DNA from: Amphibalanus amphitrite
Taxonomy: Eukaryota; Arthropoda; Thecostraca; Balanomorpha; Balanidae
Length of the DNA: 64,000 nucleotides
Assembly (NCBI RefSeq): GCF_019059575.1
Contig: NW_024881691.1
Span: 1 to 64,000, forward strand
Direction: 5' to 3'
Positions 7,663 through 64,000 of the stretch are shown here, piece after piece. Within the stretch, counting starts at the first letter, position 1. Each line of letters opens with the position of its first letter. The notes beneath the pieces are model-generated. The model ran no database searches. It had not been told where the DNA came from and saw nothing but the letters and a program-made list of their open reading frames with translations. The translations under genes were made by a program, and so were the position numbers.

Positions 7663-8042
7663 TCTGCCGCTCTGGGACTCTGTCACTGCCGCTCTGGGTC
7701 TCTGTCACTGCCGCTCTGGGCCTCTGTCACTGCCGCTCTGGGTCTCTGTCACTGCCACTCTGGGTCTCTGTCGCTGCCGCTCTGGGTCTCTGTCACTGCC
7801 GCTCTGGGTCTCTGTCACTGCCGCTCTGGGTCTCTGTCACTGCCGCTCTGGGCCTCTGTCACTGCCGCTCTGGGTCTCTGTCACTGCCACTCTGGGTCTC
7901 TGTCGCTGCCGCTCTGGGTCTCTGTCACTGCCGCTCTGGGTCTCTGTCACTGCCGCTCTGGGTCTCTGTCACTGCCGCTCTGGGTCTCTGTCGCTGCCGC
8001 TCTGGGTCTCTGTCACTGCCGCTCTGGGTCTCTGTCACTGCC
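7663..8042. repeat. 22-bp minisatellite, about 17 copies
   Basis: The tandem unit is CTCTGTCACTGCCGCTCTGG plus GT. Copies differ by only one or two bases (CCGCTC/CCACTC, TCACTG/TCGCTG), so it is young or homogenised. Because 22 is not a multiple of three, every frame reads the same 22-residue cycle, which explains the long open frame here. It is not evidence for a protein. Confidence 0.95.
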
Positions 8043-9113
8043 GCCGCCGCCGGCCCTGTCCCTCGGCATCTGGCGCTCCTCTCTCACCTCCCACGGAGCT
8101 GAACACATCAATCAGCTAAGTGGCCGCCTGTGTGAAACCAATGCGGCTGAGTGCTCGGCGCGGTAGCCGCGTCTGACCGGAGATAAAGCGGCGGCGCTGC
8201 CCGGACCGCTCCGCAGTCAGAGACGAAACGCAGGCCTGGCCGGCCGATAGCGCTGCACTGAGTATCAACTGAGGGCACCGTCCGGCCCTCGGGACGAGGC
8301 GGTACGCCTTATAGAGCAGTGGTGATAACAGGGAGCTGTCCCCCTGATGGCACACAGCGGCACACGGTGGTCCTGGCGCCAAGCCCGCCGAGCGACACTC
8401 GTCAGCGGGCAACTTCACCCGTGATCTCCTAAACAGTGACTTCCATCTGCCGCTCATCGCCGGTACAGTCACCGCAGCTGCCGCAGACAGGAAACGCCTC
8501 TCGACACGACACGGATGTGACTACGGAATACACGACCGCGGGCTGTGCAGACCGGCTGTATACACAGACAATCGGGTCTGACAATGCCGGGGACGGATGG
8601 AGGGCACACTACGGTCAACGAGCAGTGAATAGTCGTGAATAACTGATGTCCAACGTCTTCCCAACAATCAAACACAACTGACGCAGCTCAATTCACATTC
8701 ATTCTCGCCTATTTTTTCTGCTGACATACGGTAAAAAGGCCTAACAGCCAAAACCCAAACGATGATAAGTGCCAACCAGTTGCTGAGTGCCTCCCCACTC
8801 GACTCGACCATTTACCACCGTGCCGGGCTGGCAGTGGCCTACCGGTCTCCGGAGGACCGGGCATGGCCAGACGGCCGGGGCTGGCTCCGGCCCAGACCCA
8901 CTATCGATCGGTTCACGGGCTGGCCCAGAGTGCAGACAGAGGCCAACTCCCAGTGTCTGAGACTGCAACGAAATTTGGCTGTCCGCAGTCTGCACCGAAC
9001 CGAACACCGAAGGTATATATCCACTATACATAGTCAGGAGACGAGCCGTATGTACGAGAGAAATCAAAGCGGCTAAGCGGCTAGAACTGACCAACAACGG
9101 CGCGATAGAAGTT
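8043..9113. other. Spacer, no gene seen
   Basis: Mixed-composition sequence with no conserved protein, RNA gene or clear repeat that I can recognise on either strand. Confidence 0.35.
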
Positions 9114-19639: not shown

Positions 19640-20520
19640 AAGTTCCCGGCTAACCAGCCGACCGCTCCCGGCTCACCAGCCGACCGCTCCCGGCTCACCA
19701 GCCGACCGCTCCCGGCTCACCAGCCGACCGCTCCCGGCTCACCAGCCGACCGCTCCGGCTCACCAGCCGACCACTCCCGGCTCACCAGCCGACCGCTCCC
19801 GGCTCACCAGCCAACCACTCCCGGCTCACCAGCCGACCACTCCCGGCTCACCAGCCGACCACTCCCGGCTCCCCAGCCGCCCACTCCCGACTTACCAGCC
19901 GACCACTCCCGGCTCACCAGCCGACCACTCCCGGCTTACCAGCCGACCACTCCCGGCTTACCAGCCGACCACTCCCGGCTCACCAGCCGACCACTCCCGG
20001 CTTACCAGCCGACCACTCCCGGCTCACCAGCCGACCACTCCCGGCTCACCAGCCGACCACTCCCGGCTTACCAGCCGACCACTCCCGGCTCACCAGCCGA
20101 CCACTCCCGGCTTACCAGCCGACCACTCCCGGCTTACCAGCCGACCACTCCCGGCTTACCAGCCGACCACTCCCGGCTTACCAGCCGACCGCTCCCGGCT
20201 CACCAGCCGACCACTCCCGGCTTACCAGCCGACCACTCCCGGCTTACCAGCCGACCACTCCCGGCTCACCAGCCGACCACTCCCGGCTTACCAGCCGACC
20301 ACTCCCGGCTTACCAGCCGACCGCTCCCGGCTCACCAGCCGACCACTCCCGGCTTACCAGTCGACCGCTCCCGGCTTACCAGCCGACCGCTCCCGGCTCC
20401 CCCGCCGACTACTCCCGGCTTACCAGCCGACCGCTCCCGGCTCACCAGCCGACCACTCCCGGCTTACCAGCCGACCGCTCCCGGCTCACCAGCCGACCGC
20501 TCCCGGCTCACCAGCGGCCG
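19640..20520. repeat. 22-bp minisatellite, about 40 copies
   Basis: The tandem unit GCTCCCGGCTCACCAGCCGA plus CC has common variants CTTACC and GACCAC. About 880 bp at a 22-bp period gives about 40 copies. The 349-residue frame through it (19625-20674) is a 22-residue cycle and is readable in every frame, as expected for a repeat whose unit is not a multiple of three. Confidence 0.95.
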
Positions 20521-25055: not shown

Positions 25056-25484
25056 TCAGGTGGCCGCGTACTTGACCTCGTCGAAAGCCTTTCTCGCCTT
25101 CTTGAGCTCCTCGTTCATGGAGAGCAGGTCGCGCACGCGGGCGTACTTGCGCGGGTCCTTGCGCACGAGGTACATGATGTCCTCGACCTGGACGCGTCCG
25201 TTGCGCCCCACCTCCATGGCGCGCTGCGTCATCTGCGTGATGAACTCGATCACCAGGTCCTCCAGCAGGTCGACACTCTCCGTGTACGGGTTCCGGTCGT
25301 CGCCGAAGCCGTACATCATGCAGCGCAGCTCCTTGCTGAAGAGTCGCCGGCGCCCGGAGCCGCCGGCCAGCTGACTGGCGTCCTCCTCGTCATCAAACTG
25401 GTCCTCATCGGCGGCGGGGGCGGCGGCGGCGGCGGCGGCGGCAGTGGTGGTGGTGGTCGGGGTGGGCGGCGTGGAGGAGGCCAT
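25056..25484 (-). CDS. TAF13: Transcription initiation factor TFIID subunit 13
   Basis: Encodes 142 residues. TAF13 is a histone-fold subunit of TFIID that pairs with TAF11 and acts in the nucleus during RNA polymerase II pre-initiation complex assembly. The frame contains RRRLFSKELRCMMYGFGDD, NPYTESVDLLEDLVIEF, VQVEDIMYLVRKDPRKYARV and MNEELKKARKAFDEV, all nearly identical to animal TAF13. The N-terminus is a low-complexity Thr/Ala run and an acidic stretch before the histone fold, making it slightly longer than human TAF13 (124 residues). I chose the ATG at 25484. The frame stays open upstream through a (CT)n tract, but acceptor-like CACAG (25493-25497) and CGCAG (25485-25489) lie just before this ATG, so the tract is intron or 5' UTR. 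The remaining coding region is a single exon. Confidence 0.95.
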   Translation of the reverse strand: MASSTPPTPTTTTTAAAAAAAAPAADEDQFDDEEDASQLAGGSGRRRLFSKELRCMMYGFGDDRNPYTESVDLLEDLVIEFITQMTQRAMEVGRNGRVQVEDIMYLVRKDPRKYARVRDLLSMNEELKKARKAFDEVKYAAT

Positions 25485-27566: not shown

Positions 27567-30434
27567 TCAGTCGTTGGAATGTATGGTGTACTTGGCGTGA
27601 GCCCAGTGTTCGTCAAGCCTGGCCTTGAAGCTATTGACTGAGGGCGCATCGACGACAGCGGATGGCAGAGAGTTCCAGTCGTTCAGGACTCGTATGCTGA
27701 AGGCGTTCCGCCGCACTCTGGAGACAGCTCTTGGCTTGGACAGCTTCCACTCATGCCCTCGAGTTCTGGTCGTCGTCGCCGCAGTGAAGAACTGAGATGG
27801 GTCAACATCCACTCCCCGTCGAAGCACCTGGTAAACCGAGATCATGTCGCCTCGTCGGCGCCGATAGTAGAGCGATGGCAAATTCAGGCTCCGGAGTCTC
27901 TCCTCGTATGGCAGGTGGCGGATGCTGGCAACCAGTCTCGTGGCCCGTCGCTGTACCCGTTCAATGCGCTTCTGGTCTTCTCGGTTGAAGGGTCCCCAGA
28001 CCGCGTTGGCGTATTCGAGATGGGGGCGAACCATGGTCCGGAAGAGTGTTGGAAGCGTAGTCTCATCAATTATCCCGAAGGATCGACGAATGACTGTCAG
28101 AATGTGTGACGCTTTGGCCACGACTGCGGTAGCCTGTTCCCGGAACTTGAGCTGGTTGTCTATCTTGACCCCCAGGTCCTTTTCCACCAACGTCTGATCT
28201 AACAGAGTGTCTCCCATACGGTACAGGTGATTGGCGTTTCGAGGACCTAGGTGAAGAGACTTGCACTTCGACTGATTAAAAGGAAGTTGCCATTTCTCAG
28301 ACCATCCGAGCAGGGCATCGAGGTCTCGTTGCAAAGCCTCCGACTCTGAAGCCTGGCCGACACTTCTGTACAGCTTCGTGTCGTCTGCGAATAACTTTAG
28401 CCCTGACGAGACACAAGCGGGCAGGTCATTGACAAAGACCAGGAACAGCAACGGGCCCAGGACCGTTCCCTGTGGTACGCCACTGGTGACAGGAACCCAG
28501 TCTGACTTTGCCCCATTTATCGACACACGCTGCTGTCGGTCAGTCAAGAAGGCCCTTATCCATTCGAGCAGCCGACCCCTAATGCCGCAGGATTGGAGCT
28601 TCAATAACAGGCGCTGGTGAGGCACAGAATTAAACGCCTTACTAAAGTCCAGGTACAGGGCATCCACAGGGTCACCTTCCTCCAGTGCACGGGTCCAGTC
28701 TTCGACAGTTTCGAGAAGCTGAGTGGAGCACGACCTCTTCTGTCTGAAGCCATGTTGCAGGTTGCTCAGCTGTTCCGTCTCGATCAAGTAGGACATCATC
28801 TGGTCACGGACCAATGACTCGAGGACCTTGCATGGGACGGCTGTCAGCGTCACTGGTCGGTAGTTTGCAGGGCTGTCCTTCACTCCCTTCTTGAAGATAG
28901 GGATGATCTCATCGTTGCGCCAGTCACTTGGTAAGGAGGAGTTGTCCAGAGAAGAACGAAAGAGACGCGCCCATGGCTCTGCCATAACCAAGGCCGTTTC
29001 CCGAAGGATGCGCGGGTGGAGTCCGTCTGGTCCCGGTGAGCTGTCTATCTTGAGTTTCAGCAACTTCTCCCTGACCGCGCCAGTGCTGATGTCAATGTTG
29101 TCCAGCAGGGGGCCAGGGTAAACAGGTGGTGGTGCTGGCAGGACGGGGTCCTCGACCGTAAATACACTCTGGAAGAAGTGATTGAGCAAGTTGGCTTTGT
29201 CGCGGTCCTCCCGAACCATCGTCCCGTCTTCAGCCTTCAAGTCCTCCACTCTTGTCTTGGTCCGCAGTCGAGTGCCTGCATAACGCCAGAAACCTTTGGC
29301 GTTCGTACGCAGATTCCTCACCAGATGTCTCTCGAAGTTCGCACGAAGACTCCGAGTGAGTGACCGAAGCTTGTTGCGTGCACGGCAGAAGCGGGCATAA
29401 TCAAGCATATCTCTGGTTCGCATGTACTGTAACCACAGTGTCCGTTTTTGCTTCTTTAGCCGAATGGCTTCGTGGTTGATGTAGATATTCTTATTATTTT
29501 GTTTGGACTTGGCAAGGGGTATACAAGTGGTCAAGTGCTCGGACAGTTTGGCCTTGATAAAAAGGTACATAGCATGTGTGTCCTGTGAAGTACTTGTTGG
29601 CCACTCTACATCAGACATGAGTTGGTTTAAGAGTGTGTAGTTGCCCTTGCTGAGATTGAGGTGTGGCTCCAATGGCTCAGTGGGAGGACAGTAGCATTCC
29701 ACTTGGAACTGAAGCATGATATGGTCACTTGTTCCAGGCAAGTATTCCAGGTTCTTAACCATGGCCTCTTCAGAAGACAATATTAGATCAAGGGTATGAG
29801 GTGTTTCGCCAAGTCTAAATCTGGTAGGTCTGTCAACATGCTGGTACAGAAATGAGTCGTTCAACAGGTCAACAAACCCATGTGAACAGTGTGAGGGAGG
29901 TGCTGAAGAAAGACCCACTTGCCAGTTGATTTGCGGCAGATTGAAATCACCTCCAATAACCACATGTGTGTATCTAGAGTTGGTAGCCTGCTTGAATAGA
30001 GATCCAATCTTGTTAAGATCTTCTTCGGCAGAACCAGACGGGCTTCGATAAATACAGCCAAGTAGAAGGACATCAGAGCTAGCCAGCGGCATCTCTATCC
30101 AAAGCTGCTCTCTGAATGTTGAATCCTTAAAAACAACTTCAGATACCCGGAGTGATGATTTGGCATAAATGCAGACCCCTCTAATACCACTTGAGCCCAG
30201 CTTGGTTTCCGAGGGGTCGAAGTTCAGATACATGACGTAGCCAGGTACAGACAAAAGGGCTGGGGATATTGGGTGAAGTTGGGCTTTAGGTATGACTTCA
30301 TTAAGTAAGATGAAGTCTGGTTCGTTTCCCGAAATGAACATGCAAAGGTCATCACGTTTCTTCACAAACTGGTCTGCATTTGCATACAGTACCTTGAGAC
30401 CTTCTTCATATCTCGGTCCTGCCGGCCTGGATTG
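27567..30434 (-). CDS. LINE ORF2: endonuclease and reverse transcriptase
   Basis: About 955 codons are open directly after the ORF1 stop. The N-terminal part is an apurinic-type endonuclease (GLKVLYANADQFVKKRDDL, FILLNEV, YRSPSGS, GGDFNLPQINW, TSDHIMLQF). The middle is a reverse transcriptase (SSPGPDGLHPRIL, ANYRPVTLT, LYLDFSKAFNSV, GVPQGTVLGPLLF, catalytic LFADDTKLY, LGVKIDN). The C-terminal region ends in the usual LPS.V...S..SFK pattern. There is no ATG at its start: the frame runs unbroken from the ORF1 TGA at 30435-30437, and the first codon choice (GTG at 30365) would fall inside the endonuclease. The product would nick target DNA and prime reverse transcription. Confidence 0.95.
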   Translation of the reverse strand, partial: QSRPAGPRYEEGLKVLYANADQFVKKRDDLCMFISGNEPDFILLNEVIPKAQLHPISPALLSVPGYVMYLNFDPSETKLGSSGIRGVCIYAKSSLRVSEVVFKDSTFREQLWIEMPLASSDVLLLGCIYRSPSGSAEEDLNKIGSLFKQATNSRYTHVVIGGDFNLPQINWQVGLSSAPPSHCSHGFVDLLNDSFLYQHVDRPTRFRLGETPHTLDLILSSEEAMVKNLEYLPGTSDHIMLQFQVECYCPPTEPLEPHLNLSKGNYTLLNQLMSDVEWPTSTSQDTHAMYLFIKAKLSEHLTTCIPLAKSKQNNKNIYINHEAIRLKKQKRTLWLQYMRTRDMLDYARFCRARNKLRSLTRSLRANFERHLVRNLRTNAKGFWRYAGTRLRTKTRVEDLKAEDGTMVREDRDKANLLNHFFQSVFTVEDPVLPAPPPVYPGPLLDNIDISTGAVREKLLKLKIDSSPGPDGLHPRILRETALVMAEPWARLFRSSLDNSSLPSDWRNDEIIPIFKKGVKDSPANYRPVTLTAVPCKVLESLVRDQMMSYLIETEQLSNLQHGFRQKRSCSTQLLETVEDWTRALEEGDPVDALYLDFSKAFNSVPHQRLLLKLQSCGIRGRLLEWIRAFLTDRQQRVSINGAKSDWVPVTSGVPQGTVLGPLLFLVFVNDLPACVSSGLKLFADDTKLYRSVGQASESEALQRDLDALLGWSEKWQLPFNQSKCKSLHLGPRNANHLYRMGDTLLDQTLVEKDLGVKIDNQLKFREQATAVVAKASHILTVIRRSFGIIDETTLPTLFRTMVRPHLEYANAVWGPFNREDQKRIERVQRRATRLVASIRHLPYEERLRSLNLPSLYYRRRRGDMISVYQVLRRGVDVDPSQFFTAATTTRTRGHEWKLSKPRAVSRVRRNAFSIRVLNDWNSLPSAVVDAPSVNSFKARLDEHWAHAKYTIHSND

Positions 30435-34335: not shown

Positions 34336-36359
34336 TTTCGTTTCGTTTATTTAGGGCTTGTCCACAAGTGGCTATTACGGCCCAGTCAATACATGATAGG
34401 TACACACACCCACACACACACATATACATACATACAATATACACGTCAATATAAAGCAACACCCGCAAAAGCATACATAAAATATCTAAAATCAGTCATG
34501 TCACTTGTCAGTCTCTATCTAAAGTGCTGCACCAGCTGTCTCCTGGAACCAGTCGCCTTCACCTCCGGCGGCAGGCCGTTCCATGCAGCGGCGGCTCTAT
34601 ACGAAAACAGCCGCCTGGTCGCCGCCAGTCGAACCCGCGGCAGGTCGAGCACAGCTGCGCCCGCAGCCGTGGCCCGGGTGACTCTATTGGAGACGGCGGC
34701 ACGCGGGCGAAACATGGACCGCAGCGAGTCGGGGGCGCCGGCGGCGTACAAGGCGCGTTGCACGTTCACCGCGTCACGGCGTGCGATGACCTCACCAATG
34801 CCGGGCCAGCCGAGCGCGCCGAGGGCGGGGGTGATGTGGTCGAATTTGCGGAGACCAGAGACGAGCCGTACAGCGAGATGGATGGTCCTCTGCAGCCGGT
34901 GCAGGCGGGATTTGGAGGCACCACCCCAGACTGACGAGCAGTACTGGAGGTGGGGGAAAACGTGGGTTTGAACGAGGATTTTAAGGATGTCAGGGGAGAG
35001 GTGATGGCGAATTTTGAACAGTGATATAAGGATTCCATTTGACCGCCGAACGATAGAGGATATATGTGGCTCCCAGCTCAGGGTTTGGTCGAGGAGAACA
35101 CCCAGCACCTTGATGTGTTTTGTTGGCCGAATAGTTGCATCATCTACGTTAAGAGTGAAGTTTTTGACTTTATCAACTGAATTTTGAGTGCCAAGAAGAG
35201 TGAAGCAGGTCTTCTCTCCATTCATTTTTAAACTGTTTAAGCTAAACCAGCGTTGAAGTTGCTGAATGTTCTCCTCGGCCCGGGACTTCAGCACTTGGAT
35301 GCCAGTGGGATTGGAGGGTGCTGAGTCCAGGATTTGGGTGTCATCCGCGTAGGATATGAGTCGGCCATGGGGGAGGAAGCAGGTAAGGTCGTTGACGAAG
35401 ATGAGGAAGAGGATGGGACCCACGATGGACCCCTGGGGAACACCGTGGGAGAGTGGGAGGGCCGTTGAGGAGCGGATGAGTTGGGAACGGCCAGAGAGGT
35501 AGCTGCTGAACCAGCGGGATGAGATGCCATACCACTCGAGCTTGTTCAGAAGCATCGAGTGGTCGACACTGTCGAATGCCTTGCTCAGGTCGACTGACGT
35601 CACCGCGGCAACGTCACCACCGTCGACCCTGCGAGCCGCCCATTCGACAATGTCGAGTATGGCATCTTCAGTGGAGTGGGATGGGCGGTAGGCATACTGG
35701 GATGGGGAGAGGATGTGGTTAGTGATGAGGTAGGAGGTGAGCTGAGAGCATACAACCTTTTCAAGGATTTTGGAGAGAGATGGGAGGATGGATATGGGGC
35801 GGTAGTTGCCAGGCTGGTTGGGGTCACCGGATTTGTGGATTGGTGTGACGATGGCAACTTTCCATGCGTCAGGGAAGGTAAGGGTGGATATGGATGAGTT
35901 GATTAGGTGAAGGATGGGCGGACCGACTGCAGGGAGACAGCTTCTGATCGCAGCGATCGGAATGCCATCAACCCCAACAGCCCTCGACGCACTTAGCCGG
36001 CTGATGGTCAGAATCAGGTCTGGCAGCGTTATGCATTGAGGGGCGAAGGCGCTCGCACATACCCTGGGAGGCCGCGGGCCGGCAGCGGGGGTCTCGGTCC
36101 CCTGCGCGGCCCGCGCGGCCTCAGCTGCCACACGAGCGCCGACACCGGCAAAATACTCGTTGAGCTGGTCGGCGCTCAGCACATCACGGTCTGGTGACTG
36201 TGCGCCTGCAGAGCCTCTCGCAGATAGGTTAGCACCAAATCGCTTAAGTCTATTCCAAAAATGTTTCGCATCACAGTGTAAAGACTCTGTTAAGTAGGAC
36301 CTGCGCGCACGAGACAGAACTAGCTTCGCTCGGTTCCAGAGCCGCCTATAAACGTCATG
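34336..36359 (-). mobile_element. 5'-truncated LINE
   Basis: A minus-strand LINE fragment of 2.0 kb. Its 3' end reads CCCTAAATAAACGAAACG followed by AAA at 34336. Flanking ATTTCAG (34329-34335 and 36360-36366) may be the target duplication, but it is also part of the surrounding 22-bp repeat unit. The 5' end stops abruptly at 36359 inside coding sequence, as expected from incomplete reverse transcription. It is from a different lineage than the CR1-like element at 27.5-32.2 kb. Confidence 0.9.
34515..36359 (-). CDS. LINE reverse transcriptase, N-terminally truncated
   Basis: 614 codons are open from the truncation point to the stop at 34515. The endonuclease is missing. The reverse transcriptase carries RAVGVDGIPIAAI, NYRPISILPSLSKILEKVV, TSVDLSKAFDSVDH, HGVPQGSIVGPILFLIF, catalytic ISYADDTQIL and HIKVLGVLLDQTLSWEPHI. 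The C-terminus ends AAAAWNGLPPEVK. The YADD form and overall layout place it in the Jockey/CR1-type assemblage. There is no stop or frameshift within 1.8 kb, so the insertion is recent. It has no start codon of its own at the truncation and is very unlikely to be functional. Confidence 0.95.
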   Translation of the reverse strand, partial: HDVYRRLWNRAKLVLSRARRSYLTESLHCDAKHFWNRLKRFGANLSARGSAGAQSPDRDVLSADQLNEYFAGVGARVAAEAARAAQGTETPAAGPRPPRVCASAFAPQCITLPDLILTISRLSASRAVGVDGIPIAAIRSCLPAVGPPILHLINSSISTLTFPDAWKVAIVTPIHKSGDPNQPGNYRPISILPSLSKILEKVVCSQLTSYLITNHILSPSQYAYRPSHSTEDAILDIVEWAARRVDGGDVAAVTSVDLSKAFDSVDHSMLLNKLEWYGISSRWFSSYLSGRSQLIRSSTALPLSHGVPQGSIVGPILFLIFVNDLTCFLPHGRLISYADDTQILDSAPSNPTGIQVLKSRAEENIQQLQRWFSLNSLKMNGEKTCFTLLGTQNSVDKVKNFTLNVDDATIRPTKHIKVLGVLLDQTLSWEPHISSIVRRSNGILISLFKIRHHLSPDILKILVQTHVFPHLQYCSSVWGGASKSRLHRLQRTIHLAVRLVSGLRKFDHITPALGALGWPGIGEVIARRDAVNVQRALYAAGAPDSLRSMFRPRAAVSNRVTRATAAGAAVLDLPRVRLAATRRLFSYRAAAAWNGLPPEVKATGSRRQLVQHFR

Positions 36360-36830
36360 ATTTCAGGCCTGAGAGGGGCCATTTCAGGCCTGAGGGGGCC
36401 CATTTCAAGCTTGAGAGGGCCCATTTCATGCCCTAGAGGTCATGTTTGGGGCTAGAGAGGGCCCGTTTGAGGCCAGAGAGGGCCCGTTTGAGGGCTGAGA
36501 GGGGCCCATTTCAGGCATAAGAGGCACCATTTCAGACCTGAGAGGGCCCAGTTACGGTATGAGGGGGCGCTTTTCGACATGATAGGGACCATTTCCGGGC
36601 TGAGGGGGCCCATTTTAGGTCTGAGAGGGCCAATTTCAGGTCTGAGAGGGCTAATGTCAGGCCTGAGAGGGCCCATTTCAGGCCCTAGAGGGCCTATTTG
36701 AGGCCTGAGAGTCTACTTCCGGCCTGAGAAGGGCCCATTTCAGGTCTGAGAGGGCCCAGTTCAGGCCTGAGAAGACATTCCAGGAATGAAAGGATCATCT
36801 TATGTGTGGGAGGGTCCGTACTCCGTGCCT
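36360..36830. repeat. 22-bp minisatellite inside the hAT-like element (right part)
   Basis: The same unit as 34130-34335 (GGGCCCATTTCAGG.CTGAGA), about 20 diverged copies, fading into single copies by about 36,850. Confidence 0.9.
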
Positions 36831-39461: not shown

Positions 39462-42400
39462 ATGGCTTCAAAGAAGAAAGAAGGCTTAAATGCAGCCTTA
39501 ACAGGCCTCTATGCTGAACTTAACACCTTGGGACAAGCAGATGAATATGAGAAGATTATCAAAATCTCCAATAAAAGTAAGTTTTAATGATTTGATGTTG
39601 AATGATAGCTACTCATTTTCCAGGGTTAAAGAAAAACATATGCTTGCCTAATTTATTAGTTTTAATCACATTTCTCTAAACTTGTACATTATGTTTTTGC
39701 AGCCCTACTCCATTTTTCAGTATAATTCTGTTTAATCCAAATTATATGATTGCATTCAAAATTATCAACATCTGAGAAGCTCTGATACCTAGATCCCTCA
39801 CAATCTAACCATTTTGTTTACAGTCCTCTCAATGGACAAGACTGCTCTGAAGGCTCTGCAATATAAGATCATCAGTCTAATCAACCTGGGCAGATTTGAT
39901 GAAGCTCTGAAACAGATGAGCAACAGCGCCAAACTTGCAAGGTAAGAAACTTCGTGATATTGGATGACTGAGTTTCATTTATTTTGAAATAGTTGTCAGT
40001 AAAAGGTTATTTTACTGTTTTCCATGGGTGTGGAAATATGTGGTCCATGGATGTCATGATTGTATGCATTGTATGTTTTCCTGTCACCCTGCAGCTCCCT
40101 GCACTTTGAGAAGGCCTACTGTCTGTACCGCCTGAACCAGAACCAGGAGGCCCTGGAGGCCATCAGCCAGGCGCCCGAGCAGACACTCCAGCTTAAGGAG
40201 CTCAAGGCGCAGCTCTTCTACAAACTGGACAGGTGGGTCACAGACGACCTCGGGTAGGGGAATAGACTAGCTATCTACATGTACGTGTGGGTGTTGTGTA
40301 ATCGACTATTTGAGACTCCCCGTTTGCCAGTCGATGTCTGAGACTCGCTGTAAGCCGGTCGAATTGGGATGCTCCGTTTAACGGTCCATATCTGAGTCTC
40401 GTCGTTGGTTGTTCGACGCCTTTGATCCGCCGGTCGCCGTTCAGTGTCTGGAGACTCGCCGTTTAACGGTCGATATCTGAGACTCGCTGTTTCTGTTTCT
40501 TTTCGGTCGATGCGTGAGACTTGCAGTTTATCTGTCGGTATTGGAGGCCAGCTGTCAATGTCGATCTCGAGCGGTCGATCTTGTAAGACTCGTCGTTTAC
40601 TGGTCGATATTTGAAACTCGCCGTTTTCTAGTCGATGTCATAAGACTCACCGTTTACAGTAATGTATGGAGGTTCACCATTTTCCTGTCCATGTTGTATG
40701 CTCCGTTTTTCGTCTTGAGCCCCGCCGTTTTCCGGTCGATGTCTGAGACTCCGTATCCGTTCTCAGGTTCCAGGAGTCGCACCAGACCTACCGCGAGGTC
40801 ATCAAAAACACGGACGACGACTTTAACGACGAGCGAATGGCCAACCTGGCCGCCGTGCTGGCGCAGCTGGCCATGACCAACCAGGTACGACTGGACTGAC
40901 GGGTCGGAGACGAGGGAGTGCGACTGGGGAACGGGACAGACACTGTAATGTGACAGGGAGGGGCGCTTTGATAAGACGGGAGGAGAACAATGAGATATAA
41001 CGGGAGATATACCGGGAGAGTATGCTGTGCTGAAGGTAACTGAATGAAGGCGATTATACGAGTAGAGGGAGGGTACGATCACTACATTACGGTGTGAATG
41101 ATATAACGGGAGAGTACCCCAAGACTACACCCGATGCATGCCTATCTGTCTCGCACTTCCCTGCTATCTGAGCGCCTTTGACGCGTGCTGCGCCCTCTGA
41201 ATGTCGGTTCCCTTGCAGCCGGTGCCGGACGCCAGTGACCTGGGCGACTCTACGTACGAGCTGGTGTACAACGCGGCGTGCCGTCTGCTGGCGGCCGGCC
41301 GGTACCAGGCGGCCGAGCGGCAGCTGGCGCGCGCCGCCGACCTCTGCCGGCACACGCTGCGCGAGGACGGCGCCGACGACGACGAGGTAGACCAGGAGAC
41401 GGCCGTCATCGACGTGCAGCGCGCCTACTGCCTGCAGCGGCTCGGCCGGCCCGCCGACGCCGCCCTCCTCTACCACGAGACGCTCAAGAAGCGGCCGTCC
41501 GACGGAGCCGTGCTCGCCGTGGCCGCCAACAACATTGTCTGCATCAACGGCGACCAGAACGTGTTCGACTCCAAGAAGCGGATGCGCGCGGTGACGGCCG
41601 AGGGCGCCGAGGCCAAGCTGGCGGGTCACCAGCGCCGGGTGATGGCCGTCAACCAGTGTCTGTTCAGCCTGCTCACCCACCAGGGCGAGGCGCTGCAGAA
41701 GCAGCTCTCCCAGCTCACCGAGCGCTACCCGGAGGAGGCAGTGACGGCCGCGCTGATCCGCGCCTCGGCCGCCGCCCGCAAGAGCCCGGACGAGGCGGTG
41801 CGCCTGCTGTCCGAGCTGCGCACCGACTCGCCGCAGCAGCAGCTGCTGGTACAGCTGGCGCAGGTGCAGCTGCTGGTGGGCCGCGGCCAGCTGCTGGAGG
41901 CCAGCCGGCAGCTGGGCGCGCTCGGCGACCTCAGCCGCCGGCCGGGCGTCGTGTCGACGCGCGTGGCGCTGTGCGTGCGCGCCGGTAGCCAGGAGGCGGC
42001 CGCCCAGCTGCTGCAGGAGGCGGTCAGGCAGCAGGCGCAGGCCGGCGCGCGCGGCGACGCCAGCCAGCTGTGGCGCCAGTCGGCCGACTTCAGTCTGCGC
42101 TGCGGCGAGCCGCGCGCCGCCGCCGCCAGCCTGGAGGAGCTGCGCCGCGCCCAGCCGGGCGACGTGCGCACCGTGGCGCAGCTGGTGACCGCCTACAGCC
42201 AGTTCGACCCGGCGGCGGCGCGGCGCGTCTCTGCCGAGCTGCCCCCGCCGCAGCTCGGCACCGGCCTGGACGTGGACGCCCTGGAGAGCACCTCGTGGTC
42301 GGCGGGCGGCCGGCCGCGCCGCAAGGACGGCCTGCCCAGCCCCGGATCACCCAGGTAAGGACGGCCTCCCGAGTCCCTGATCACTCAGATTATCGAATGC

Positions 42401-47804: not shown

Positions 47805-50567
47805 CTAGTCGGCCGCCGACTGTTCTCGAAGTGCGCGCACCACCGTGTGCACGTGCCCGATGTAAGCCTTGTACTCGCGCATGAGCACCCAGTTGCGCAG
47901 GTCCCTCTCGCGCGTCTCGTCCAGGTCTGGTCCGTCGTGCTCGAGGATGTCGGTGACGCGCGCCGCGTCCGCCTCCAGCTGCTTCTCGAGGAGCGCCAGC
48001 TGCAGCTCACACAGCAGCTGCGGGAGGGACAGTGGGTCAGAGGAGGGTCACACAGCTGTGGAAAGGCGTGAAAGCGAGTCAGAGGCAGCTGCAGAGGGAG
48101 GCTGAGAGGCTATCTACTGGAGAAGGCACAAGCGCTGGGATATGTTTTACCATTTCACGGGGAAATCTCGGAGGGACTGGGCCCGTGGCCAGGATTGCGT
48201 CAGGCTCTTCTGTCCCTGACGGGACGACAATGACTGGAAGGCTTAGCGCCAGATCGCCAGAAAAGGCGCTGCACTGTCCCGGGAATGGTGATGCCGTCTC
48301 CGTTAAATGACGCGAGACGTCGTTCAGTGGCCGGGGGATAACACGAACAGCGGAAACCAAAACACGCCAACTTCGCACGGAACAGCACTTACCTACCCTA
48401 TCAGCATTTAGAGGGGTATGCTTCCCCATCCATATTTAGCATCGACCTGTGCAGCTCAGACCTCAGTTTCATCCGTGATTGAATGGGATTTCTCCGAAGG
48501 TTTCTTTTCTATCATTTCTGTTTCTCTCTCCCCTCTCTCCTTCCTCTCTCCGCCTCTCTCCACCCACCTGCATGAGTCCGGCCTGGACGGCGCGGAACAG
48601 CTCCAGGCCGCTGCCGTTGCCGGTGAGCGCCGCCTCCAGCGCAGCTCGCTCCAGACCGACGGCCAGCCGCTGCAGGTCGGCGAACAGGCGCGGCAGCGCG
48701 CCGGCCGCCGACAGCGGCGACTGCTGCGCCGCGTGCGCCGCCATCGTCTCCCGAACAAACTCGAGCCAGGTGACGTTGTGCTGGCCCCAGTCGCGCAGCA
48801 TCTCCGCTTCGTCCTTGGCCGGGTACGTCTGCTCCAGCTGAGAATGGAGGGAGGCGGGGTCAGGGTACGGTCTGCTCCAGCTAGGCGAGGAACTTCGCAA
48901 CGCCGTCAGTACCAGAGAAATTTTCACAGGGAGATTAAACTTACAGGACGTAGTATCCTCCAGAGGTCTCAGAAGTTGTACATCTCGGATTTTTCTTTTA
49001 GGTTACATGAGGTCAGGTCGGTCACGTGACCTCACAATGGGGAAAAATGAAAACTGCTATTTTGGCGCCGGGAACGATCTCAACTATCCCAAGCACACGG
49101 AATCGTGATTTCATGCGCTCCTTGCAAGGGCTTCACGTTTGCATTGTTGACCCTGCGTAATGTCATTTATGACGTCACTAGGGTCATAAGAGTTTTCGTC
49201 AATAACTCCCGACCAAATTGAGTTAGCGAGTCAAGAAAGCCTTCAATGGACTCAGGAAGACCTGCCGAATCGAACGATATGCAACATGACCTCCTTTGAC
49301 CAACTTCGTGACCTGGGGGCTCTGACCTGACCTTGACGTGAGGGCAACACCTGAAGTTGACCTCACCCTAGCAAGAAGTATACCATTCGATGCCCCTGAG
49401 CGAGGCGAACACGATGATGCTAAAATCGCGGCTCTCCAGTCGTTTTTGCGAAGTTATTTATCAAAAACCTTACCCTGTCCTGGGCCGCTTGACCTGACCT
49501 CAGAGGTCACCAGTTGACCTGAGACCTTAAAATCGGGTAACAGTCGCTGCGTCTCGTAACGGCGCACACGCTCTTATTTCCTAAGGCTCTACCTCTCAGT
49601 ATTCAGGGGCGAAACGAGAAGGGGGAGTCGTACGTACGGACCCCCCCCCCCCCCGGCCGCCGCTTAGGTAGAAAACCAATAGGTCTGGCGGGGGTTAAAT
49701 CCTGACGCTTTTTTTGCGTCCGTGTGTGGGTTAGCATGTCGCCTCCCGACCGATCCTGTCTGGCTCTGCGGTCGCCGGCGGCGCTGCGGAGGTGACCGCA
49801 AGAGCCCCTCCTCCGGCGGGTCAACACCCGTCCGACCCTGAGGGCGCCCGGCCGGCCGGCAGACCGACTATCTGGGTAACCAGTGAGACCGCAGGCGGCG
49901 CCTGACACCCCGCTCCGCCACTTTCTCCGCCACATGACACATCGTGACGTCACGATGACGTAATGCGACCGGCGCGGCGGCGCGGGGGTGGCTGGCAGTG
50001 TGATTTGTCCCGATTTTATCGCTGTGGCATCTCGGCGTGGCATTGACAGGCTGTAATCCTCCCTTGATTCACCTGTATCAGTTTATTTGATGTACTTCTT
50101 TACCCGACTTTCAGATTCACATGAAGTTTAACACTTAGGATCTCGCGTGAGCTTTGTTGCAATAGTGAATGCCAGGTTTTCTCAATCCCAATATGATATG
50201 TGAGCATGAAAGGGGAATATTTATATCAGCGAAGAATTTTGATCACAGTGCCTCACGCCGTATCCACACAAGATCTTTGGTGACGAGTTCACATGCAGTT
50301 TCGCATATAGGGACAATTCGTTCCCCGTTACCCTACAGTCGGTACTCACGAATTTGTTCATTAGCCGGTTGACCTTAGGTCGGATGACGTCGATGACGCT
50401 GATGATTTGGTCGAGCAGTTTGGTCTCGGCGGTGGCCTTCCCGCCGGAGGCTGCCGCCGCCGCCGCCTCCAGGTTACACGGGTCTCGCCAGCTTCGTTTG
50501 ACCGGTTTGGCGCTCACTGAGGTCACCAGAGCGGCGATCAGCAGGAGGGGGACCAGCGCCGACTGAC
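47805..50567 (-). CDS. Secreted helix-rich protein, possible four-helix cytokine (5' exon not found)
   Basis: Three minus-strand exons join in phase: 50567-50350, 48837-48568 and 48017-47805, giving 232 residues plus an unseen first exon with the ATG. The product starts with a hydrophobic signal peptide (SALVPLLLIAALVTSVSA) followed by KPVKR. Then come four long amphipathic helices: A (KLLDQIISVIDVIRPKVNRL), B (LPRLFADLQRLAVGLERAAL), C (LELFRAVQAGLMQLLCELQL) and D (RERDLRNWVLMREYKAYIGH). There are two cysteines (in RDPCNLE and LLCELQ) and two N-glycosylation sites (NVT, NGS). Length, helix spacing, phase-0 internal introns and a separate start exon recall long-chain cytokines of the CNTF/cardiotrophin/LIF group, with weak similarity in helix D. 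This is inference; an unrelated helical secreted protein is possible. The 3' splice site of its first visible exon lies in a triplicated repeat, and its first visible intron holds a TTAA element. Confidence 0.6.
48888..49698. mobile_element. TTAA-type element (copy E), left end missing
   Basis: The right end reads AATAGGTCTGGCGGGGGTTAA with a C-tract before it. The body matches copy F at about 54690-55690 (CGCAACGCC.TCAGT, GGTTACATGAGGTCAGGTC, GACCTGCCGAATCGAA). No matching left terminus was found, so it is truncated. It lies about 50 bp upstream of exon 48837-48568 of the cytokine-like gene, within its intron. Confidence 0.75.
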
Positions 50568-50712
50568 CTGAGGGTTACACAGAGGGACCGGGTCACCAGA
50601 AACCAGCGCCGACTGACCTGAGGGTTATACAATACACGGAGGGACCGGGTCACCAGAAACCAGCGCCGACTGACCTGGGGGTTATACAGAGGGACCGGGG
50701 CGGGGTTACCAG
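50545..50712. repeat. Tandem repeat (50-57 bp) copying a splice acceptor
   Basis: Three copies of a unit containing ACCAGCGCCGACTGACCTG (starts about 50552, 50602, 50659). The first copy is the end of the cytokine-like exon plus its acceptor (minus strand CCCTCAG then GTCAGTCGG). The other two repeat the same acceptor and exon edge upstream in the intron; one has CCCCCAG instead. Confidence 0.9.
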
Positions 50713-54689: not shown

Positions 54690-55690
54690 GCGATAGCTCC
54701 AAGCACGCTGGAGATGGAGAGCTGAAACTTAGCATAGCTGATCTTTGATTCAAGCTGGATCTTTTGACACCAACTGCATTTTCGGGTCAGGTCAGGTCAC
54801 TGACCTATAACGTCATAAGTGAACCTCTGCACGGTCTTTAGATGTCGCAACTTCGCAACGCCCTCAGTGTCAGAGGAGCTTTCACAAGGAGATGAAACTT
54901 TCAAGACCTAGTATCCATTAGAGATCTCACAGCTTGTATATCTCGGATTTTTCCTAAAGGTCGCATGAGGTCAGGTCAGTTACCGTGACCTCATCATTAG
55001 GTAGGTAGGTATACCTAAGTCAATGGGAAAAATGAAAACTGCTACTATGGCGCCGGCCGAACGATCTCAAACTATCTCAACCGCACGGTGACGGAATCGT
55101 GATTTCATGCACTCCTTGTAAGTTTGGACGCTTCACTTTTGCATTTTTGACCTTGCGTGACGTTAGGATGACGTCACTAGGGTCATTAGAGTTTTTCGTC
55201 AATAACTTCTGATCAAATTGAGTTAGCGAGTCGGAAAAGCCACCGATAGACTCGAGAAGACCTGCCGAATCGAATGATATGCGACATGACCTCCTTCGGC
55301 CAAGCTTGTGACCTGAGAGACTCTGACCTGACCGTAACCCGAGGCCAACACCTCAACTGACCGCACCCAGACAAAAAGTACCTATAGGTAGGTACCATTC
55401 GACGCGCTTGAGAAAGGCGAACACGATGCTGTCAGAGTCGCGGCTCTGCGACCAATTTTGCGAAGTTATTTGCCAAAAACCGAACCTTGGCACTTGGGCC
55501 ACTTGACCTGACCTCGACAGTTGACCTGAGACCTTAAAATTGGGTACTAATCGCTGCATCTTGTAACGGCGCACACGCTCGTTTTTCCGCAACGCTCTAG
55601 CTCTATCAGGGGCGAAACGGCGAGAGGGGGTCGTACCCGCCCCCCTCCCCTCGGCCGGTGCATATTTAGAAAACCAATAGGTCCGGCGGA
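54690..55690. mobile_element. TTAA-type element (copy F), ends rearranged
   Basis: The body matches copy E and extends further left (TTTTTTTTCGCGATAGCTCC near 54680). The right end stops at AAACCAATAGGTCCGGCGG and continues as an inverted copy of the same terminus (ACCTATTGGTCCGCC) instead of GGGTTAA, making a palindromic junction at about 55672-55696. The left terminus is not identified. Confidence 0.65.
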
Positions 55691-62366: not shown

Positions 62367-63890
62367 TCACTCCTTGAGCCACGTGCCGAGCTCGTCAGTG
62401 AGCGCGGTGATACAGGAGCGCTGCTCCCGGCAGGGCCGGTCCAGACACTCGGCCGGCGCCGCCCCGCAGCCCACCAGCCGCCGCTCGTGGCGCCACCGCA
62501 CGGCCGACGCAGAGGCTCTGGTGACGTTGGCGCCCACCAGGCGGTAGTACTGCGCCAGGCAGAACACGGTGTCGGCGCCGGGCAGCTGGACGGCCGGACA
62601 GCGGAGGCTGAGGTGCAGCAGGCCCGACTCGGAGGCGGCGCAGTGCAGCTCGAGCCGCGCCGGCCGGGCGGCAGACACCAGCAGCCGCTCGGGCAGCTCG
62701 GCGGCGCGCCGGGCCGCGCTCAGCTCGGCGGCGCCGGCCGGCGCAGTGGCCGTCAGCTGCAGGCCGTCGCCGCCGCAGCCGCCCAGCGCCGCGTACAGGG
62801 CGCGCACGTCGCTGCGGCGCACCAGGTGCAGGCCGGCGCCGGCCGAGCTCAGCACCATGCGGCCCAGGTAGGCGCCCTGCTGCGGGTCCGCCTCGATCCG
62901 CACCTGGCCAGTCACCGCCCACAGCGCCGGGCCGGCGTCCGGCGCCGCTAGCAGCTCGCGCTCCAGGTCCGCGCGCGCCACTACCCGGGTCACGGCGAAC
63001 CGTCCGCCGGCGCGGCGCGAGCCGTCCCTGACGGCGGCGGCGCCGGTGACGCCCGCGCGCACGGAGGCCCGCAGCGCGGCCAGCGCGCCGGTCGTGTTGC
63101 CGTGGCCGAGCAGCAGGTGTCCCAGCTCGGCCAGCAGGGCGGCGCCGTCGTAGGCGCGCAGCACGCTGGGCGCCGGCTGCTGCGCGCCCGTGGTCAGCCG
63201 GCGCAGCACGGCCCACTGCTCGGCCGCGCTGGCCGCGTCCGCCCCGGAGTAGATGAGCGCCGTCAGTTTGACGCGGACGGCCGCCGCGCGGGCCGCCGGC
63301 GAGGCCAGGATGTCGTCCCGCAGCGCCACCGAGTCGGTGCCGAACCACTGGGCGGCCGAGAGCCGCGAGTCCCAGCCGCCCTCCTCCAGGAAGTGGCGCA
63401 TCTCGGCGCCGGAGACGAACAGCAGGCCGACGGTGGCCGGCGGCGCCGCCAGCGCGGACACCGCGTCGGCCGCCGCCCGGATGACGGCGCCGCGGCCGGC
63501 GGCCGCCGCCGCGTCGGCCGGCCGGTACCAGACCGGCTCGGTGACGGCCGTGGCGGCGCCGTCGAACAGCGCGGCGCGGCGCAGCTCCTCGACCACGCTG
63601 CGGCCGTAGGTGGTGTCGGCCGCCACGGGCACCAGGTGCCGGACAGAGCGCTGGCGCAGCAGGCAGAGCAGCGCCGCCGCCAGCGCCGCGTCCCCCAGAC
63701 TGAGCAGCAGCGGATTGCCCGAGTCCGACTGCAGGTCACCGGCCGTGGCCGTCGGCGAGACGAGCACGGCGTCGGGCGCGTGCTGCGAGGCCCACTGCAC
63801 GGCGCGCAGCAGCTCGTCGCTGTCCGGGAACCCGATAAACAGCCGCACCCCGTCCGCGTACAGCTGCTGGACAGCAGCCAGAGTGTCGCC
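62367..63890 (-). CDS. Periplasmic-binding-protein-fold (receptor ligand-binding-like) protein, 3'-terminal exon
   Basis: About 507 codons from the acceptor CTCCGCAG (ending at 63891) to the stop at 62367; the gene continues upstream beyond the window. The first half has the type 1 periplasmic-binding fold as in class C GPCRs, guanylate cyclase receptors and bacterial amino-acid-binding proteins: DTLAAVQQLYADGVRLFIGF, VLVSPTATAGDL, then HLVPVAADTTYGRSVVEELR and TVGLLFVSGAEMRHFLEEGG. The Ser-Pro-x-Ala-Thr and Tyr-Gly-Arg-Ser positions are those of the family. The second half contains a Cys-rich end (CGAAPAECLDRPC, EQRSCI). No transmembrane segment follows, so the encoded end is probably secreted. 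GC-rich codon use and Ala/Arg runs are strong. No close family name can be given. Confidence 0.65.
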   Translation of the reverse strand, partial: GDTLAAVQQLYADGVRLFIGFPDSDELLRAVQWASQHAPDAVLVSPTATAGDLQSDSGNPLLLSLGDAALAAALLCLLRQRSVRHLVPVAADTTYGRSVVEELRRAALFDGAATAVTEPVWYRPADAAAAAGRGAVIRAAADAVSALAAPPATVGLLFVSGAEMRHFLEEGGWDSRLSAAQWFGTDSVALRDDILASPAARAAAVRVKLTALIYSGADAASAAEQWAVLRRLTTGAQQPAPSVLRAYDGAALLAELGHLLLGHGNTTGALAALRASVRAGVTGAAAVRDGSRRAGGRFAVTRVVARADLERELLAAPDAGPALWAVTGQVRIEADPQQGAYLGRMVLSSAGAGLHLVRRSDVRALYAALGGCGGDGLQLTATAPAGAAELSAARRAAELPERLLVSAARPARLELHCAASESGLLHLSLRCPAVQLPGADTVFCLAQYYRLVGANVTRASASAVRWRHERRLVGCGAAPAECLDRPCREQRSCITALTDELGTWLKE

Positions 63891-64000
63891 CTGCGGAGGG
63901 ACGAGGTTACACGAGCTCAGAGAGACACTCTGGCCAATAGACGACCCGGTGGATGCTGGGTCTGGACGCCAGCTTAAACGAGGACGACACCATTATTTAT

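Follow-up and report, generated by a model that had tools for sequence, protein, structure and literature searches.

A family of predicted secreted helical proteins in an arthropod genome and its candidacy as a source of cytokine-type ligands

Does the interval 47805-50567 of the 64,000-nucleotide stretch of DNA analysed here (the window) hold a real gene, and might its product be a secreted, cytokine-like signal, as the initial annotation proposed? That annotation read three phase-matched exons in this interval, and the reading stands: on the minus strand three exons spanning exactly 47805-50567 (50567-50350, 48837-48568 and 48017-47805, the last one including the stop) splice in frame into 232 residues without the start exon, with GT-AG splice sites, both internal introns (2/2) in phase 0, and the frame kept in a second haplotype as well as in a paralogue. 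The second haplotype of the window region is a collinear contig, C780, and the features of the locus are as follows.

50552..50699, no strand assigned: 57-bp tandem repeat of 2.8 copies, which repeats the exon A acceptor; the open exon continues from the innermost copy only
50350..50567, minus: exon A, with the split first codon (GT), signal peptide residues 1-19, the dibasic KR, Cys30 and helix 1 (read from the sequence); the C780 allele is identical, and exon A' of the paralogue matches in phase
50476..50478, minus: Cys30 codon, in a motif W-[RK]-[DN]-P-C common to the paralogue
48838..50349, minus: intron 1, phase 0, GTGAGT...CAG; the haplotypes differ at 12 of 1507 aligned columns
48568..48837, minus: exon B, residues 73-162, with predicted helices 2, 3 and the beginning of helix 4 and the sequons N93 and N146; 0 substitutions in the allele
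48769..48777, minus: N-glycosylation sequon N93-V-T, whose equivalent in the paralogue is N-M-S
48018..48567, minus: intron 2, phase 0, GTGGGT...CAG; between haplotypes 34 of 549 aligned columns are substituted, with 240 gap columns
47805..48017, minus: exon C, residues 163-232 and the stop, with Cys165, the remainder of predicted helix 4 and helix 5 (helix-D-like); 3 synonymous substitutions in the allele
48009..48011, minus: Cys165 codon, in a motif LLCEL common to the paralogue

The acceptor of exon A is in phase 1 (CAG/GT), leaving 2 bases of a split codon, and an alternative AG 5 bases downstream would be in phase 0. Since the frame upstream of this acceptor runs into a stop without an ATG, a separate start exon is needed, in agreement with the initial annotation; a donor scan of the rest of the window gave 16 phase-1 candidates, of which 3/16 have the same sequence in both haplotypes; none of the 16 is established as the start exon. 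The 57-bp repeat yields 3 copies of the splice acceptor and of the first bases of exon A, the same 3 acceptors being present with small indels in the other haplotype, and the part of intron 1 at 48891-49691 is ~76% identical to 54849-55689 upstream of the gene, a similarity seen through the C780 alignment that probably reflects a dispersed repeat. The surrounding window also holds two LINE-type reverse transcriptase open frames on the minus strand (27570-30434, with an endonuclease domain, and 34518-36362), a TFIID 18 kDa subunit (TAF13-like) domain in a single open frame (25059-25370, minus), a 385-aa TPR-repeat open frame near the gene (41201-42355, plus) which we take to be SRP72-like, a 541-aa open frame (62370-63992, minus) that resembles the ANF_receptor ligand-binding region just below the Pfam cut-off, and 22-bp minisatellites at 7664-8044 (~17 copies) and 19644-20515 (~40 copies) in which several frames are open.

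Read by eye, the signal peptide comprises residues 1-19 with a cut between A19 and K20, leaving 213 mature residues with a dibasic KR after the signal peptide, Cys30 and Cys165, and sequons at N93 and N146, which bears out the signal peptide, two cysteines, two N-glycosylation sites and roughly 210 mature residues first described. The predicted product is therefore a secreted protein within the size range of class I helical cytokines (~160-220 mature residues), the signal peptide being judged by eye and without the start exon.

Evidence that the exons are a real coding gene comes from searches of the genome (807,550,619 bases in 2644 contigs). Between the two haplotypes the exons differ at 3/704 aligned columns (3 of the 704 columns lie just past the stop) with no indel, and the flanks and introns differ at 63/2818 columns (exons versus these, Fisher p = 0.0005); when only the low-divergence reference, made up of intron 1 and the upstream part (20/1917), is used, the difference is not significant (p = 0.16). 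All 3/3 exon substitutions are synonymous and all fall in exon C (p = 0.017), and on C780 the frame is intact and the splice dinucleotides are unchanged. A protein search of the genome returned 10 matches from 13 scored candidates, 6 of them from the two haplotypes of the window gene and 4 from a paralogue and its haplotype. The contig pairs C194/C780, C122/C1262 and C735/C1736 look like two haplotypes, in the case of C735/C1736 on the basis of paired matches only, and because haplotypes stand as separate contigs, gene counts from this assembly are likely to be inflated.

The paralogue lies on C122, where its last two exons match at E = 9.6e-18 and 9.5e-17 in the genome search. Its first exon is a weak match (E ~0.38 genome-wide on two contigs; 1.3e-5 and 9.9e-6 in a local search) that agrees in place, phase and motif.

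C122:312946-312723: paralogue exon A', 16/53 residues identical (mature part of exon A)
C122:304805-304521: paralogue exon B', 46/88 residues identical
C122:304225-304007: paralogue exon C', 38/70 residues identical

The two proteins are 45% identical and their junction phases are 1-0-0 in both, the paralogue exons being longer by 6, 15 and 6 bases (all multiples of three). Both cysteines, the first sequon and the dibasic site (RR, in place of KR in the window gene) are kept, and the polar and aromatic motifs MLRDWGxHNxSWLxFVRET and LRNWVxxREYKxY are conserved in both. Translation of the paralogue could begin without a spliced start exon, since its frame (312555-313277) continues open on the upstream side of the acceptor and includes in-frame ATGs. 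Codon positions 1/2/3 differ at 94/67/104 of 229 codons, 21/52 comparable fourfold sites differ, and the NG86 estimates (dN 0.47, dS 0.80) suggest mild constraint on the pair. On the other haplotype of the paralogue, C1262, only exon A' precedes the contig end, with 1/224 bases different, a replacement. By these sequence comparisons we regard the window gene as proven to be protein-coding, because a paralogue with matching junctions exists, which is the strongest proof, and because the frame is intact in two haplotypes; a chance open frame or pseudogene, in whose favour one might cite the donor scan that yielded no identified start exon, is highly improbable and is rejected on the haplotype conservation and the paralogue with its matching junctions. 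The genome appears to encode a family of at least two secreted helical proteins.

If the gene is real, to which family does its product belong? An hmmscan against Pfam-A at E up to 10 (the HMMER filters drop most matches above ~0.1) gave 1 noise match for the window gene and 0 for the paralogue, and in controls LIF matched LIF_OSM at 2.5e-63 and CLCF1 matched CNTF at 2.8e-5 as well as PRF. Against PDB sequences a single-sequence search gave 4 noise matches and a profile search 0. An alignment of eight vertebrate IL-6-family cytokines recovers from the PDB IL-6-family chains, more weakly IL-27 and IL-23, and a few designed or unrelated helical chains. When the profile of the two paralogues was compared with these eight cytokines using hhalign, the segment LRNWVLMREYKAYIGHVHTVVRALRE was paired with helix D in register at E 0.11 and a probability of 0.5%, which is not significant, and with the window gene alone a different region was paired. 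A helix-D profile scored the paralogue best at the right place with 6.3 bits (a left-out IL-11 scored 5.2 bits), a score reached by 643/3000 shuffles and by 415/5000 when the shuffling preserves the hydrophobic pattern. The top-scoring site of the window gene lies elsewhere and has 1.7 bits, reached by 2760/3000 and 1172/5000, respectively. By these scores the helix-D likeness is at chance. FxxK at the start of helix D marks LIFR-binding cytokines; exon C of the window gene has no F, and exon C' of the paralogue has no F-x-x-K.

Searches for other known families gave a similar picture. Neither paralogue has a Pfam match to Unpaired (PF15972) at E up to 10, and a genome search with the PF15972 profile found no match, which says little because its control found none either. 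The Pfam searches of both paralogues also gave no match to apolipophorin-III, a negative that holds as far as Pfam models that family. Collections of viral and prokaryotic contigs gave 21 and 40 pattern matches with 0 confirmed, which has little bearing on an animal gene. Membership of the CNTF/cardiotrophin/LIF group or of Unpaired by sequence is rejected, given no Pfam match, the hhalign E of 0.11 and a helix-D score at chance; no unrelated secreted family matched in Pfam or PDB. These sequence searches do not show membership of any cytokine family, and the proteins appear to form a family without a counterpart in Pfam or the PDB; the gene may already be annotated somewhere as an uncharacterised protein.

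Such an orphan could be a lineage-specific secreted helical protein unrelated to cytokines and without a signalling role (for example in haemolymph, cuticle, adhesive or seminal fluid). Consistent with this are the missing relatives in Pfam and PDB, the fast evolution and the hypothetical status of any receptor; against it stand the long motifs, MLRDWG to VRET and LRNWV to YKxY, together with the dibasic site and the sequon, that both paralogues share. We consider this alternative somewhat less likely than a secreted helical signal, and the most serious of its competitors.

We modelled exons B and C separately using single-sequence AF2. The model of exon B (pLDDT 77.6) has long helices at 79-110, 119-144 and 149-161 and a four-residue helix at 113-116, and that of exon C (pLDDT 83.9) has helices at 164-189 and 196-231. 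Residues 44-74 of exon A look helical by sequence reading, and here the window gene is amphipathic (38/5000 shuffles reach its value; 1105/5000 in the paralogue). Helix 3 of the window gene also has a hydrophobic moment that stands out (95/5000 shuffles); its other helices are not amphipathic beyond shuffles, and in the paralogue no helix is. The window gene thus seems to have five long helices plus a four-residue one, with loops of ~9 residues or fewer, in place of the four amphipathic helices of the initial annotation, and only helices 1 and 3 are amphipathic beyond shuffles. The paralogue has 7 extra residues between helices 2 and 3, and intron 2 is positioned inside predicted helix 4.

As modelled, this arrangement fits an antiparallel bundle directly. 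An up-up-down-down topology is not clear, and would fit only if helix 4 ended near 176, with 177-195 as a crossover, and helix 2 lay in the A-B crossover; a crossover at 177-195 stays conceivable because this segment is less conserved than its neighbours (8/19 identical between paralogues). A Foldseek search of the exon B model against the PDB returned assorted helical proteins with a best E = 2.0 and no cytokine among the best 50 of the 56 matches listed. Of the structure prediction and fold search that had been proposed, taken here exon by exon, the helical models were obtained, whereas a clear up-up-down-down bundle and a meaningful Foldseek match for exon B were not.

Apolipophorin-III is a five-helix antiparallel amphipathic carrier, and the five long helices and short loops of the window gene would suit a carrier of this kind. 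However, Pfam gave no such match, neither paralogue has a helix 4 or 5 that is more amphipathic than its shuffles, and Cys, Trp and the sequon are conserved. We consider this explanation improbable beside a secreted helical signal.

Gene structure offers a further, modest line of evidence for that signal. The phase pattern 1-0-0 of both paralogues fits that of many long-chain class I cytokines, in which a phase-1 start intron is followed by phase 0, as in GH, EPO, IL-6, LIF and G-CSF; the caveats to this fit are the missing start exon, the alternative phase-0 acceptor of the window gene and the open upstream frame of the paralogue. The evidence is modest because phase-1 introns near signal peptides are a general bias. 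The same pattern raises the possibility of a class II-like helical cytokine of the interferon/IL-10 kind, in which two extra helices, helix 2 and the last part of helix 4, would stand between those of the bundle. In the IFNL2/3 genes a four-residue start exon and a phase-1 intron are followed by phase-0 introns (PMC2654155), to which the putative short start exon here would correspond, and the count of five helices, together with the short loop that joins helix 3 to helix 4, would agree with this. No Pfam or PDB match accompanies the likeness, however, and it is an explanation of low probability. To our knowledge, class II receptors outside chordates are doubtful.

The best single explanation, plausible and held tentatively, is that the product is a helical-bundle ligand, secreted and glycosylated, which acts on a JAK/STAT-type receptor as a cytokine-type signal and has at least one paralogue. 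A secreted helical signal is favoured because of the signal peptide, dibasic sites, sequon, two cysteines, helices, fast divergence (which is frequent in cytokines) and 1-0-0 phases, and it gains from a second haplotype that preserves the frame and the splice sites, from a paralogue that keeps the phases, both cysteines, the first sequon and the dibasic site, from all-helical models of exons B and C, from STAT exons in the genome and from the in-register placement of the last helix on helix D by two-sequence hhalign. Against it count the lack of a significant cytokine sequence match and the other region paired by the window gene alone, the helix-D score at chance and most helices not amphipathic beyond shuffles, the five helices with short loops, the helix 4 break that up-up-down-down needs and intron 2 inside helix 4, the Foldseek result for exon B among the best 50 of 56 matches listed, and a genome search for the JAK PH-like family that had no match (its control likewise had none, so this says little). 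The STAT_bind exons lie on C735 and C1736 with 3 matches each, probably as two haplotypes of one gene, and Chitin_bind_4, an arthropod cuticle domain, has at least 150 matches in the genome (150/150 scored of 705 candidates), which identifies it as that of an arthropod. What remains of the cytokine-like reading is a secreted, helical, two-cysteine, glycosylatable protein in an arthropod with STAT exons; kinship with CNTF, cardiotrophin and LIF does not (Pfam, PDB, hhalign E 0.11).

As a ligand, the protein would enter the secretory pathway by its signal peptide, might be trimmed at the dibasic site and would fold into a long-helix bundle that a Cys30-Cys165 disulfide may hold together. In LIF and OSM a disulfide links helix C to the stretch that precedes helix A, and the putative one here could be its analogue. 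Domeless or the orphan CRLF3, both receptors of class I type, would be the likeliest target, with JAK and STAT downstream.

Most of the arthropods examined so far have conserved Domeless, JAK and STAT, and core parts of the pathway occur in crustaceans (PMC4833078, PMC5437397). Mites, honey bee and Coccidae are reported to lack homologues of Unpaired; the pathway is kept in mites and, as stated in 2025, is presumably switched on by an as-yet-unidentified ligand (PMC12027997). A 2022 shrimp study describes arthropod activators as largely unknown and aquatic arthropod ligands as little known, and proposes peroxiredoxin 4 (Prx4) (PMC9195186); in shrimp, Vago is a further candidate for this role (PMC4602278). 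CRLF3 is described as having, as of 2021, no known endogenous ligand in any species (PMC8063046), and a review calls Upd3 a putative Domeless ligand, with neither Upd3 nor Domeless structurally studied (PMC7378365). Our non-exhaustive literature search, which covered titles and the openings of abstracts, turned up no helical cytokine in crustaceans; this does not prove that there is none. With their exact gene models, the secreted helical proteins described here are testable ligand candidates for Domeless or CRLF3. A bolder reading, rather doubtful though conceivable, is that these proteins are ligands of Domeless or CRLF3 in a crustacean-like arthropod. They would then supply the JAK/STAT ligand so far missing from arthropods other than Drosophila, having diverged beyond the reach of the Unpaired and IL-6-family profiles.

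How, then, does the window gene compare with known systems? Like IL-6, LIF and CNTF, whose genes have a phase-1 start intron followed by phase 0, it encodes a secreted protein of ~210 residues with predicted long helices, and hhalign with the profile of both paralogues sets its last helix in register against helix D; unlike them it has no significant match to the family, five predicted long helices, short loops, no FxxK and intron 2 in a predicted helix. With apolipophorin-III it shares a secreted five-helix antiparallel architecture compatible with the exon models, and it differs in having no Pfam match and in the Cys, Trp and sequon conserved between the paralogues. Compared by gene structure and sequence, it differs from IFN-lambda/IL-10 in having no sequence match and resembles them in a putative short start exon with a phase-1 intron and later introns in phase 0, as described for IFNL2/3 (PMC2654155). 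Finally, Drosophila Unpaired (PF15972) has no Pfam match to the window gene at E up to 10, and yet, if the proposed function is right, both would be of one kind, namely secreted arthropod JAK/STAT ligands.
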